From the NCBI RefSeq assembly GCF_003841485.1, contig NZ_REFY01000001.1, positions 248,001-312,000 on the forward strand: a stretch of 64,000 bases of DNA, given 5' to 3'. This stretch comes from Natrarchaeobius halalkaliphilus (GTDB lineage Archaea; Halobacteriota; Halobacteria; Halobacteriales; Natrialbaceae). This document shows positions 7,798-53,847 of this stretch, piece after piece; position 1 is the stretch's first letter, and each line of letters begins with the position of its first letter. The notes below the pieces were generated by a model. It was not told where the DNA came from. It saw only the letters and a program-made list of their open reading frames with translations, and searched no databases. The position numbers and the translations under genes were made by a program.

Positions 7798-8940
7798 ATG
7801 ACACCCGTCCACCGACTCGATGGATCGAACGCAGGCGGGCAGTTCCTTCGAACGGCACTCGGCCTCTCGGTCGTCCGAAACGAGTCCATCCGCATCGAAA
7901 ACGTCCGTGGCGATCGTTCGACGCCCGGTCTTCGTCACCAGCACCTGGCCGTCCTCGAGACGATCGCGGAGATCTGTGACGCCGACGTGTCGGGTGATGG
8001 GGTCGGCTCGGAGACGATCGAGTTCGATCCCGACCTTCCGACCAACGGGCGTCGTGGCGGCCGAAGCGATCGTTCCAGTCCCCGACGTACCGACCGACGA
8101 GGGAGCCTCGACGGCGGCGACTACGCCGTCGATATCGGAACCGCTGGCAGCATCACGCTGCTGTTCGACGCGCTCGTTCCGCTCGCGAGCGTCCTCGAGT
8201 CGCCGCTCTCGGTGACGGTATCGGGCGGAACGGACGTAAAGTGGTCGCCCCCGATCGACTACACACGGTACGTGAAACTGCCGCTCCTCCGAACGTTCGG
8301 TCTTTCCGTGGCCTGTGAGGTCGACCGTCGGGGGTTCTATCCCGACGGCGGCGGACGCGCAACGCTTCACCTCGGGCCGTCTCGATTCGATCGAATCGAA
8401 CTGCTCGAGCGCGGTCCGCTCGAAGGAATTCGCCTCTATTCGACCGAAGCGGCGACGCTTTCCGACCGCGACGTGGCACATCGACAGGCGGAGGGTGCGC
8501 TCGAACGACTCGAGTCGAATCTCGGAGCGGCGGTCGACGCCGATCGCGACGGCGACGGATCGGTCCTCGAGCCGATCGAACGCCGTGAGACGACCGCGGG
8601 GAGTGACTGTCCGGGAACCGCGATCGTGCTCCGACTCGACTACGCGACCGGGGCCGTCGGATTCGGCGCCCTCGGAGAGAGAGGAACGCCGGCCGAACGC
8701 GTCGGAGAACTCGCCGCGGATGCGGCCCTCCGACACCTCACGGGGGCCGCACCGGTCGACCGACACCTGGCCGATCAGCTACTGGTCGTGCTCGCGATCG
8801 CCGGCGGACGGATTCGCATCCCTTCGGGTACCGACCACGTCAAAGCCAGTTGCGATCTGCTCGAGGCCGTTGGTGGGGCCGTCGAGCGCGAACAGGACGG
8901 GCGCGGGACGGTCGTCTCGGTCACACCACTCGACGGCTGA
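7798..8940 (+). CDS. rtcA: RNA 3'-terminal phosphate cyclase
   Basis: A 380-residue enzyme that converts RNA 3'-phosphate ends to 2',3'-cyclic phosphates with ATP. Family motifs are visible: DGSNAGGQFLRTAL near residue 9, IGTAGSITLLFDAL near 120, the catalytic-region motif RRGFYPDGGG near 180, and a C-terminal segment with VDRHLADQL. An Arg/Ser-rich insert of about 20 residues near residue 85 (GRRGGRSDRSSPRRT) is unusual for a halophilic protein. It probably forms a transcription unit with the PhnP-like gene (5-bp gap). Confidence 0.93.
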   Translation: MTPVHRLDGSNAGGQFLRTALGLSVVRNESIRIENVRGDRSTPGLRHQHLAVLETIAEICDADVSGDGVGSETIEFDPDLPTNGRRGGRSDRSSPRRTDRRGSLDGGDYAVDIGTAGSITLLFDALVPLASVLESPLSVTVSGGTDVKWSPPIDYTRYVKLPLLRTFGLSVACEVDRRGFYPDGGGRATLHLGPSRFDRIELLERGPLEGIRLYSTEAATLSDRDVAHRQAEGALERLESNLGAAVDADRDGDGSVLEPIERRETTAGSDCPGTAIVLRLDYATGAVGFGALGERGTPAERVGELAADAALRHLTGAAPVDRHLADQLLVVLAIAGGRIRIPSGTDHVKASCDLLEAVGGAVEREQDGRGTVVSVTPLDG

Positions 8941-9005
8941 GTTCCGTTTTCACGCCTATTGATTGCATTGCGAACCGGAGTAATCCAATGCCCGATAAAT
9001 GACAT

Positions 9006-9015
9006 AACTTATATC
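9006..9015 (+). promoter_or_regulatory. TATA-type promoter of the KDG kinase unit
   Basis: An AACTTATATC box lies in an otherwise AT-poor region. Its centre is about 27 nt before an ATG at 9038, the spacing at which haloarchaeal transcripts begin. The mRNA would therefore start at or next to that ATG. Confidence 0.6.
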
Positions 9016-9037
9016 ACTTCCACCCGACGGTTCACCC

Positions 9038-9085
9038 ATGGGTACGTCGAATTCGATCGATGAGGAACGGAGGGGCGGCGTGTGA
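9038..9085 (+). other. Leaderless 15-codon mini-ORF overlapping kdgK start
   Basis: ATG at 9038 opens a frame of 15 sense codons (MGTSNSIDEERRGGV) ending in TGA at 9083-9085. The stop overlaps the GTG start of the kinase as GTGA. The ATG lies where transcription should begin. A GGAGG stretch inside the mini-ORF at about 9070 is positioned to serve the kinase start. The layout suggests translational coupling or a leader peptide. It could also be chance. Confidence 0.45.
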
Positions 9086-10035
9086 GCGACCTCGTCACCT
9101 TCGGTGAAACGATGCTCCGACTCTCTCCGCCCGGGAGCGAGCGCCTCGAGACGACGAGCGAGTTCGAGGTCTGTGCCGGCGGCGCAGAGAGCAACGTCGC
9201 GATCGCGGCGAACAGGCTCGGGACGCCGTCGACCTGGCTCTCGAAGGTTCCCGAGACGCCACTCGGCCAGCACGTGGTCGGCTCGCTTCGACGACACGGT
9301 ATCGAGACGGACGTCGTCTGGAGCCACCGCGGACGCCAGGGAACCTACTACATGGAACGGGCCGGCGACCCCCGCGGATCGCAGGTCATCTACGATCGCG
9401 AGAACACCGCCTTTGCGACCGCGGAGGCTCGAGAGTTTGACATCGACCGAATCCAGAACGCTCGCGTGTTCTTTACGACCGGGATCACGCCCGCGCTCTC
9501 CTCGACGCTTCGAGAGACCACCGCGAGCATGCTCAAAGCCGCTCGGAACGGGGGAACGACGACGGCGTTCGACTTCAACTACCGGGGCAAGCTCTGGGAA
9601 CCGGAGCAAGCGGAGGAGACGCTAACGAAGCTCTTTCCGGGAATCGACGTGCTGGTGATCGCCGCTCGAGACGCGAGAACCGTCCTCGGCTTCGAGGGCG
9701 ATCCGCGACAGCTCGCACACAAACTGGGCTCGCAGTACGAGTTCCAGACCGTCGTCGTCACGCGGGGCTCCGACGGTGCAGTCGGCTGGCACGATAGCGT
9801 GGTTCACGAACAGGACGCCTACGACACCGACACCGTCTCCGAGATCGGAACCGGCGATGCGTTCACCGGCGCGTTCATCGCGAGTCGGCTCGATGGCGAC
9901 GACGTTCCCACTGCGCTCGAGAACGCCGCGGCCGCGGCAGCACTCAAACGAACGATTCCCGGCGACGTCGCGCTCATCACCGACGAAGAAGTCGAGGCGG
10001 TCGTTTCCGAGGGCGGCGACGACCTCTCTCGGTGA
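9082..10035 (+). CDS. kdgK: 2-keto-3-deoxygluconate kinase (PfkB family)
   Basis: A 317-residue PfkB/ribokinase-family sugar kinase. The N-terminal signature (CAGGAESNVAIAANRLG, residues about 32-48) and the C-terminal signature with catalytic Asp (IGTGDAFTGAF near residue 255) are both present. The sequence pattern (FGETMLRLSPP at the start, FDFNYRGKLW in the middle) is that of haloarchaeal KDG kinases of the semi-phosphorylative Entner-Doudoroff pathway. KdgK makes 2-keto-3-deoxy-6-phosphogluconate. The GTG start has a good Shine-Dalgarno sequence about 10 nt upstream and overlaps the end of a mini-ORF. Confidence 0.88.
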   Translation: MSDLVTFGETMLRLSPPGSERLETTSEFEVCAGGAESNVAIAANRLGTPSTWLSKVPETPLGQHVVGSLRRHGIETDVVWSHRGRQGTYYMERAGDPRGSQVIYDRENTAFATAEAREFDIDRIQNARVFFTTGITPALSSTLRETTASMLKAARNGGTTTAFDFNYRGKLWEPEQAEETLTKLFPGIDVLVIAARDARTVLGFEGDPRQLAHKLGSQYEFQTVVVTRGSDGAVGWHDSVVHEQDAYDTDTVSEIGTGDAFTGAFIASRLDGDDVPTALENAAAAAALKRTIPGDVALITDEEVEAVVSEGGDDLSR

Positions 10036-26930: not shown

Positions 26931-27247
26931 CAATAGATGTAACGGGAAATCGTCTCCACTTCGAGTGATAAATCGATGCACCGGGCGGACACTTCGGGCA
27001 AAAACCTACGAGCGGACTCGACCGAGTGCCCCGGGATCGTTCGAAATCGTCGATTTCGTGATTTGGTGGGTGTGTCGCTCTCGCAGAGTCTCCGCTCCCG
27101 CGTAGTGGTGAGGCGCTTGTACAGAGCGCGATGGCTGACCGATACTATCCGATGTGCCTTTCCGGGTCGACGCCGTTCGTTCCGTATGAACGAAGAGTCG
27201 CCCGAGATTCTCGTGTGGCAACCGTCCCCAAATTCAGTGAGATACCC
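26931..27247. other. Intergenic region between divergent genes
   Basis: No gene is supported here. The reading frame upstream of rlmE is open but lacks family sequence. It must contain the promoters of the antitoxin (minus strand) and rlmE (plus strand). Confidence 0.5.
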
Positions 27248-28024
27248 ATGACAGGACGCGACCACTACTACAACAAGGCGAAACAGGAAGGCTACCGGAG
27301 TCGAGCCGCCTACAAGCTCAAACAGCTCGACGATCTCGAGAACGTTCTCTCTCGCGGTGATACCGTCGTCGACCTCGGTGCCGCACCGGGCGGCTGGCTC
27401 GAGGTCGCGGCCGAAGCGGTCGGTACCGAAGGGACCGTCATCGGCGTCGACCTCCAGCGGATCAAGGACTTCGACGATCACGACACCATCGAGACGATCC
27501 GCGGGGATATGACCGAATCCCGGACGCGAGAGCGCGTCATCGACGCCGCCGGCGGTTCCGTCGACGTCGTGATCTCCGACATGGCACCCAACATGTCCGG
27601 CGAGTACTCCCTCGATCAGGCGCGATCGCTGTACCTCGCTCGCCAGGCGTTCGAGACGGCACTCGAGTTGCTCGACAGCGACGGGGACTTCGTCGTGAAG
27701 GTGTTCGAGGGAGCGGACGTCGACGAGTTCCGCGCGGACGTCGGTGACGCGTTCCAGTACGTCCGGGCGACGAGTCCGAAAGCCTCGCGGGACGAATCCT
27801 CCGAGATCTACTTCATCGGCAAGGGCCGACTCACCGCACCCGTGCGCTCGGGTGACGAACTCGAGGTCGAGATCGTCGACGTCGGGGACGAAGGCGACGG
27901 GATCGCCTCCGTCGAGGGCTATCGACTGTTCGTTCCCGGAACCGAAACGGGCGACGTCGTCGACGTTCGCATCGAAGACGTCAAGCCGAACTTCGGCTTC
28001 GCGAACCGACTGAACCGGGAGTAA
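27248..28024 (+). CDS. rlmE: 23S rRNA 2'-O-ribose methyltransferase with TRAM domain
   Basis: A 258-residue FtsJ/RrmJ-family enzyme. SAM motif VVDLGAAPGGW is at residues about 41-51; catalytic K-D-K-E positions are visible near the start (SRAAYKLKQLD), in ISDMAPNMSG, and in DFVVKVFEG. The family methylates U2552 of 23S rRNA. An RNA-binding TRAM domain fills the C-terminus (EVEIVDVGDEGDGIASVEGY to VRIEDVKPNFGFA), as is usual in haloarchaea. Start at MTGRDHYYNKAKQEG matches the family. Confidence 0.95.
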   Translation: MTGRDHYYNKAKQEGYRSRAAYKLKQLDDLENVLSRGDTVVDLGAAPGGWLEVAAEAVGTEGTVIGVDLQRIKDFDDHDTIETIRGDMTESRTRERVIDAAGGSVDVVISDMAPNMSGEYSLDQARSLYLARQAFETALELLDSDGDFVVKVFEGADVDEFRADVGDAFQYVRATSPKASRDESSEIYFIGKGRLTAPVRSGDELEVEIVDVGDEGDGIASVEGYRLFVPGTETGDVVDVRIEDVKPNFGFANRLNRE

Positions 28025-52752: not shown

Positions 52753-52881
52753 TCGGGTCGGTATCGATTCCGTCCCTGACCGGAAGCCGCGTTCTCCGTT
52801 CGACGACCGTCCTGGCAGGGTGATAGTCGTCGCTTCGCGACTGGATACGTTGAAGTCCCTCGAGTCGCATCCTCGAGTCGA

Positions 52882-53847
52882 ATGAACCGACGACGGTATC
52901 TGGCCGGCTGGGCCGCCGCGCTGGCGGCGTTCGCGGGTTGTCTCGACGGCGACGGGAACGGGGAGGCGAACGTCGACGATCGAACCGGCGAACGGGCGCT
53001 CAGCCGAGGGATCGGCCAGTTGAACGACGCAGCGATCGCGTTGCAGATCGAAGACGAACTGGCGGAGCCCGAGTCCGTCGACTTCGATCCCGACACGCCG
53101 CGGACGCACCTCTCGACTGCGCGCGATCACCTCGAAACCGCCGAAGCTGAACTCGAGGACGAACGAGCCGGCGATATCGACGAGCTTCGGCGCTACGCGA
53201 CGGTGCTCGAGGCGGCAATCGACGTGGCCGGGACGGTCACCGACGAGGCGCTCTTCGAGGAAATCGAGCGCATCGAAACGGCACTCGCGGACGGCGGCGA
53301 CGAGCACGACCGCGAGACCACAACCGAACTCCTCGACGATCGAATCGAAGCGCTCGAGACGGCCGGCGACCGTCTCACCGACGCGAAGGCGGCGATCGAA
53401 GCCATCGACGAGGGCCGATACGAGTCCCTCGAAACCGTCGATCTCACCGACGTCGAGTCGGGCGTCTCGACGCTCGAGGCGGTCGTTATCAGCCAGTCGG
53501 CGCTCGCCTCGGGCTACGACGCGACGCTCGAGGGAGACGACGACCTGGATCGAGGACGAGCGTACGCCGACGACGGCTCACACGGCGATGCCGAAGCCGC
53601 ATTTCTCGACGCGAAAGCGTCGTTCGAAACCGCGACGGAAACGTTCGAAGGCGGCTCGGACGACGCGCCCGACGGGCTCGAGGGCTACTTCGAGACGGCG
53701 CTGTGTCGGAGCAACCACCTGACGGACGCCGCGGCGAACTTCGCGAACGCGTCGGCCGCCGCGGACGACGGCGATGTCGTCGCCGCCGGTCAGTACCGGG
53801 ACGACGCCGAGGACGCCCTCGACGCCGCGGCGTCCTGTGGGGAGTAA
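52882..53847 (+). CDS. Haloarchaeal Tat lipoprotein, helical, unknown function
   Basis: A 321-residue protein. The Tat signal and lipobox are visible: MNRRRYLAGWAAALAAFAGC, with Cys 20 as the lipid-modified residue. The mature part is highly acidic and helical (repeated HLETAEAELEDERAG, RDDAEDALDAAASCG), like a helical-bundle or coiled-coil surface protein. No family function is known. It lies on the cell surface by inference. Confidence 0.85.
   Translation: MNRRRYLAGWAAALAAFAGCLDGDGNGEANVDDRTGERALSRGIGQLNDAAIALQIEDELAEPESVDFDPDTPRTHLSTARDHLETAEAELEDERAGDIDELRRYATVLEAAIDVAGTVTDEALFEEIERIETALADGGDEHDRETTTELLDDRIEALETAGDRLTDAKAAIEAIDEGRYESLETVDLTDVESGVSTLEAVVISQSALASGYDATLEGDDDLDRGRAYADDGSHGDAEAAFLDAKASFETATETFEGGSDDAPDGLEGYFETALCRSNHLTDAAANFANASAAADDGDVVAAGQYRDDAEDALDAAASCGE

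Follow-up and report, generated by a model that had tools for sequence, protein, structure and literature searches.

In Natrarchaeobius halalkaliphilus and all examined relatives from its family, kdgK, the gene of a 2-keto-3-deoxygluconate kinase, is preceded by a mini-ORF that begins at the predicted transcription start site and ends on the start codon of the kinase. We propose that this mini-ORF is very probably a leaderless fore-cistron that serves ribosome delivery, with ribosomes terminating at its end and re-initiating at the kinase, and that it is not a leader peptide with a sensing role. According to our comparison of orthologs, the start, the frame and the overlapping stop of the mini-ORF are under selection, and its peptide is not. 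It would be translation as far as the kinase start that is conserved, rather than any message carried by the peptide.

Architecture of the kdgK locus

The window, a stretch of 64,000 nucleotides from a haloarchaeal genome of 3.5 Mb, carries kdgK on the forward strand (9082-10035). The gene encodes a 2-keto-3-deoxygluconate/galactonate (KDG/KDGal) kinase of the PfkB family (PF00294), a protein of 317 amino acids that begins with MSDLVTFGETMLRL and whose stop codon lies at 10033-10035. Against the NCBIfam equivalog model of the haloarchaeal KDG/KDGal kinase (NF041332) it scored 512.8 bits, with a cut-off of 440, over residues 2-317 of 317. Since residue 2 aligned to position 2 of the profile, the GTG at 9082-9084 is the correct start of the kinase.

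The gene upstream encodes an RNA 3'-terminal phosphate cyclase and occupies 7798-8940; 97 bases lie between its end and the ATG of the mini-ORF. The kdgK promoter contains the TATA element ACTTATA at 9007-9013 (forward strand), identified in the sequence and by a 7-mer search in orthologs. As the element occupies these positions, the ATG at 9038 is found at +31 counted from the first TATA base, and the transcription start of kdgK is predicted from the promoter at about 9038. Read as an open reading frame, the mini-ORF, predicted to be leaderless, spans 9038-9085 of the forward strand. It has 15 codons (the ATG at 9038 and 14 further codons; MGTSNSIDEERRGGV) and ends with a TGA at 9083-9085. 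The Shine-Dalgarno (SD) motif GGAGG lies inside the mini-ORF at 9069-9073 (forward strand), with a spacer of 8 nt to the kinase GTG, and the GTGA at 9082-9085 (forward strand) combines the start codon of the kinase with the stop codon of the mini-ORF in a -4 overlap. An earlier note, made from the letters of the window, had pointed out this GTGA overlap of a 15-codon frame with the kdgK start, the ATG at the TATA-predicted transcription start and the kinase SD sequence within the mini-ORF; all three are indeed present, and the promoter placement recurs in the orthologs described below.

In the interval between the TATA element and the transcription start, bases -18 to -10 (9020-9028 in the window) form an operator-like conserved stretch near CCGTYCGTT. 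Exact copies of this motif were found in 45 of the 125 kdgK promoters of the family; the window's own copy is not exact. The consensus obtained for promoters in general from the genome sample does not contain the motif, though this consensus ends at -18.

Frame, stop and peptide across the family

Our sample consisted of the kinase loci of all 125 family genomes returned by the search. Judged by the named matches, which are Haloterrigena, Natrinema, Halopiger and Natronorubrum, the family is the Natrialbaceae, and the congener G002 carries the kinase locus of a record named Natrarchaeobius chitinivorans. Left out of the family count were the window copy itself (L001), a second row of a genome fetched twice (L129, genome G062) and two paralogs (L006 and L007). 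The latter are diverged second KDG-kinase genes of congeners, with 51-52% identity, that have no mini-ORF and are apparently leaderless.

Promoters were scored with a matrix that is blind to the reading frame; it was initially seeded with kdgK promoters, after which 199 promoters of the window genome served to retrain it. In 125/125 orthologs, the upstream RTG ranked best by this matrix is the beginning of a frame ending on the kinase start; choosing the ATG by its frame led to the same 125 loci. In a simple 7-mer search, the first ATG followed the first TATA base by 30-31 nt in 117 of the 125 orthologs, and for the remaining eight the search picked an incorrect 7-mer or an ATG further upstream. 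The length of the mini-ORF ranges from 11 to 28 codons. The overlap with the kinase is of the -4 type (RTGA) at 117 loci and of the -8 type at eight, and the distance between stop and start is at all 125 loci inside the range reported for haloarchaeal termination-reinitiation (-8 to +6 nt; PMC10666635). No stop codon interrupts the mini-ORF frame at any of the loci; stops are present in the other two frames at 18 and 23 of them. The kinase frame between the two starts is closed at 27 loci and open at 98, and the ATG is never in the kinase frame. Conservation in related genomes, which the earlier note had named as a check, is seen for the frame as well as for the overlap with the kinase start.

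At a single locus such an arrangement could be due to chance: when leaders were shuffled with dinucleotides kept and given a random length, about 29% of the trials yielded a frame ending at +4 or +8, and the kinase locus was therefore compared across its 125 relatives. An open frame by itself is weak proof as well, since 79% of the shuffled leaders in which the frame was kept were also stop-free. Simple counts of loci are inflated by kinship, relatives not being independent, and a count on a tree is the safer figure, though here on a short alignment. For this count we applied unordered parsimony to a tree that was built with FastTree from the first ~130 codons of the kinase and comprised the 125 family members and nine members of another family (f7). 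After the gain of the mini-ORF, its ATG-to-kinase distance changed 34 times, and 30 of these changes are divisible by three (binomial p = 5e-11 versus 1/3). The four non-triplet changes all enter a frame that is stopped at +8, as in GTGAGTGA or GTGCGTGA, and none of them enters the kinase frame. A TGA at kinase bases 6-8 is present at 8/8 loci of the -8 class versus 8/117 loci with a -4 overlap (Fisher 1e-8, uncorrected for kinship). Thus, a lost -4 stop was met each time by a -8 stop.

Judged by these length changes and by the 125/125 orthologs of the frame-blind choice, the arrangement across relatives is far from chance. Chance or shared ancestry without selection, to which the shuffling result and the kinship of the loci would lend themselves, would have to account for 34 separate length changes by parsimony with 30 of them in frame. 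It would also have to account for the fact that the device was lost at none of the 125 family loci although, as a leaderless kinase start is tolerated in other families (see below), it could have been. We therefore attach practically no weight to this explanation.

The peptide behaves differently from the kinase. In 40 disjoint pairs of close relatives, substitutions in the mini-ORF amount to 0.126, 0.151 and 0.145 at codon positions 1, 2 and 3 (p = 0.55), versus 0.061, 0.045 and 0.220 in the kinase of the same pairs. The GC content of the three codon positions is 0.61/0.63/0.68 in the mini-ORFs versus 0.70/0.52/0.86 in the kinase, i.e. the mini-ORFs are without the strong GC3 pattern that genes of haloarchaea show, which is expected of a neutral peptide and equally of non-coding DNA. 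A codon-bias test of the mini-ORFs gave no clear coding signal, and no conserved codon run was found in the mini-ORF peptides of the family orthologs. In-frame indels, compensating stops and a neutral peptide, taken together, show selection on the place of start, frame and stop with the sequence left free, and a frame that is held while its sequence drifts is the signature expected of a ribosome-delivering frame. A free sequence combined with a stop fixed on the kinase start suggests that the mini-ORF may only hand ribosomes to the kinase.

The device in other families and before other genes

Outside the family we analysed 85 kinase loci with the same matrix and a 99% threshold, leaving out five paralog loci (L224-L228). 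The device was detected at 21 of these loci, with 15 junctions at -4, five at -8 and one at -1 (TGATG). At 38 loci the kinase itself is predicted to be leaderless, at 23 nothing exceeded the threshold, and at the remaining three an upstream start opens a frame that ends elsewhere. Put differently, 21 of the 24 upstream ATGs placed by a promoter end on the kinase start. An SD-like motif (4-mer or better) precedes the kinase at 124/125 family loci and at 18/21 device loci elsewhere; before the kinases predicted to be leaderless it is present at 7/38 loci.

By promoter prediction and overlap, the device is not confined to kdgK. We surveyed 464 kb of sequence from the window genome, with the window as a part of it. 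Of the 373 genes called there, 280 had free upstream space. An RTG at the predicted transcription start opens a separate frame before 25 genes; five of these frames end exactly at -4 and 20 do not, and kdgK has the best promoter score among the five. A second case in the window precedes rlmE (27248-28024, forward strand), which encodes a member of the 23S rRNA uridine-2552 methyltransferase family. Its mini-ORF (27186-27251, forward strand; MNEESPEILVWQPSPNSVRYP), predicted to be leaderless by the promoter matrix, overlaps the gene start with ATGA. Before yigZ, a mini-ORF with a GTGA overlap, likewise predicted to be leaderless, is located outside the window at about 348762-348830 of contig C1 (locus L269). 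Among family loci we found the device before rlmE in 16/32 and before yigZ in 22/33 cases; both sets were picked for the presence of the device in the window genome, and these frequencies are not estimates for all genes. Where the best promoter of rlmE and yigZ relatives falls on an upstream ATG, the frame ends at -4 in 38 of 39 cases, the exception being L304. Further predicted-start frames with an RTGA overlap occur at 52820-52885 of the window and at 192730-192774 of contig C1, with downstream starts at 52882 and 192771, respectively. These have a weak promoter score, or the downstream ORF is fragment-like.

We consider the chances to be even that leaderless fore-cistrons are a general way of starting translation in haloarchaea that serves a few per cent of the genes. 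At the same even chances, genes that start tens of bases inside their message would keep a throw-away frame from the 5' AUG, and many SD motifs of first genes in haloarchaea would be parts of hidden frames and not of untranslated leaders.

Mechanism, precedents and meaning

As predicted from the promoter, the kdgK transcript would begin at, or one to two bases from, the AUG of the mini-ORF. Ribosomes would initiate on this AUG by the leaderless route, translate a throw-away frame of 11-28 codons in which the identity of the codons would be irrelevant, and stop at the UGA overlapping the start codon of the kinase. Re-initiation on the kinase GUG or AUG would be aided by the nearby upstream SD motif (GGAGG), as in gene pairs of Haloferax. 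Translation of the mini-ORF and its coupling to the kinase we infer by analogy with the systems discussed below. The reloading of ribosomes at the kinase GTG, which the earlier note had put forward, gains support from the conserved frame, the overlap and the 30 of 34 length changes in triplets.

Three other explanations were weighed. If the mini-ORF region were a plain 5' leader, de novo initiation at the kinase would be due to the SD motif, and the ATG of the mini-ORF would merely serve RNA polymerase as an initiator signal; a good SD motif is almost universal (124/125) and the ATG is located at the expected transcription start, just as one would predict from such a leader. However, neither the conserved frame and overlap, with 30/34 length changes in triplets, nor the compensation by -8 stops nor the lack of any locus with the ATG in the kinase frame would be explained, and for H. 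volcanii it is reported that SD motifs in 5' leaders are inactive de novo (PMC3986360, PMC6728339). We regard a plain leader as improbable. A ribosomal frameshift at the GTGA would turn the mini-ORF into the true N-terminus of the kinase, in keeping with the overlap of the two frames and with a kinase frame that is open back to the mini-ORF ATG at 98/125 loci. This proposal is hardly credible, as the two relative frames (117 vs 8 loci) would require different shifts, the kinase frame is stopped between the two starts at 27/125 loci, the peptide is neutral and the NF041332 profile begins at the GTG.

A regulatory leader peptide or attenuator, in which the peptide or a pausing ribosome would sense a sugar or an amino acid and gate translation of the kinase, comes closest to the earlier note, which had envisaged a leader peptide controlling sugar catabolism. 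The position of the mini-ORF 5' of a sugar-catabolic gene would suit such a role, and cysteine-rich leaderless uORFs have been proposed as attenuators in mycobacteria (PMC4633059). This part of the earlier note found no support, given a peptide that is neutral by codon position in the 40 pairs and whose length is free between 11 and 28 codons without a conserved codon run. A terminator scan of the window at 8900-9200 found none, and the folding of the leader RNA, calculated for the window sequence only, is ordinary (z -0.06 and -1.56). A sigma-70 promoter scan of the same interval also found none, this promoter type not being applicable here. Moreover, the same device precedes the rRNA methyltransferase gene rlmE and yigZ, and as neither of these two genes is related to sugar, it is unlikely that the device senses sugar. 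Altogether, we judge a regulatory peptide to be very improbable, and ribosome delivery by a leaderless fore-cistron is the reading that we favour.

The nearest relatives of the kdgK device are the coupled small ORFs of mycobacteria (Shell et al. 2015, PMC4633059), where 23 of 220 leaderless small ORFs were classified as "coupled" and one example keeps the linkage but not the peptide. The mycobacterial ORFs open with a leaderless RTG at the transcription start, and the kdgK mini-ORF opens at the predicted one. Both have a small-ORF TGA that forms RTGA with the next start (at kdgK, in the window and at 117/125 loci). Both also keep the architecture without the peptide, and ribosome delivery was proposed for the mycobacterial kind too (PMC4633059). 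Unlike the latter (PMC4633059), the kdgK device is archaeal, is present at 125/125 loci of one family and has had its indels counted; it also uses -8 and -1 junctions.

In Haloferax volcanii, 72% of the transcripts are leaderless (PMC4983044), and initiation in 5' leaders was reported not to be driven by SD motifs (PMC3986360). When stops were put into an upstream gene, translation of the overlapping downstream gene fell to near zero, and loss of the SD motif lowered downstream translation in most of seven gene pairs (PMC6728339). The commonest gene overlaps of this species, -4, -1 and -8 (PMC10666635), are the very junction classes of the kdgK device. As in the Haloferax pairs (Huber et al. 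2019, PMC6728339; 2023, PMC10666635), the kdgK device combines these overlaps with an SD motif at the end of the upstream frame. The downstream start of the pairs depends on nearby termination, and the same would apply to kdgK. However, those pairs are ordinary genes, whereas the upstream frame of kdgK consists of 11-28 unselected codons at the 5' end of the message (PMC6728339, PMC10666635).

Short upstream frames as such have been described in this haloarchaeon, too: uORFs of 15-31 amino acids were sought in leaders of 150-250 nt and found in 16/97 (Babski et al. 2016, PMC4983044), and leaders of this length are the only ones for which our search brought up work on haloarchaeal uORFs. In the accessible text of that study no gene overlap is tied to them, and leaders as short as that of kdgK were outside its search (PMC4983044). 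A leaderless bicistronic design in Corynebacterium glutamicum also combines a leaderless promoter, a fore-cistron and an SD motif, and translation of the fore-cistron was required for full output. This design is engineered and bacterial, whereas the kdgK arrangement is natural and archaeal (PMC10367133). One review lists the delivery of ribosomes by short ORFs among the purposes that have been proposed for coupling (PMC12548453). Another, on initiation in archaea, refers to the studies of Haloferax gene pairs, with no such mini-ORFs in its accessible text (PMC7531240).

We found no description of a leaderless coupled mini-ORF in archaea in the full-text literature that we searched; closed-access work could hold one. 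Neither did our literature search yield a useful published study of a regulator or the promoter of haloarchaeal kdgK, and the gene is not mentioned in the accessible part of a paper on TrmB (PMC10817205). What would be new here is an archaeal device that a whole family has retained at a single gene, with its frame-preserving indels counted and its compensating stops.

If our interpretation is correct, the kdgK mini-ORF would be a clear natural case in archaea of a frame that selection keeps only because it is read. It would help to explain why haloarchaea retain SD motifs that fail de novo. Some of the short "untranslated leaders" of haloarchaea would in fact be translated, which would bear on the annotation of gene starts, on catalogues of small proteins and on the design of expression vectors.
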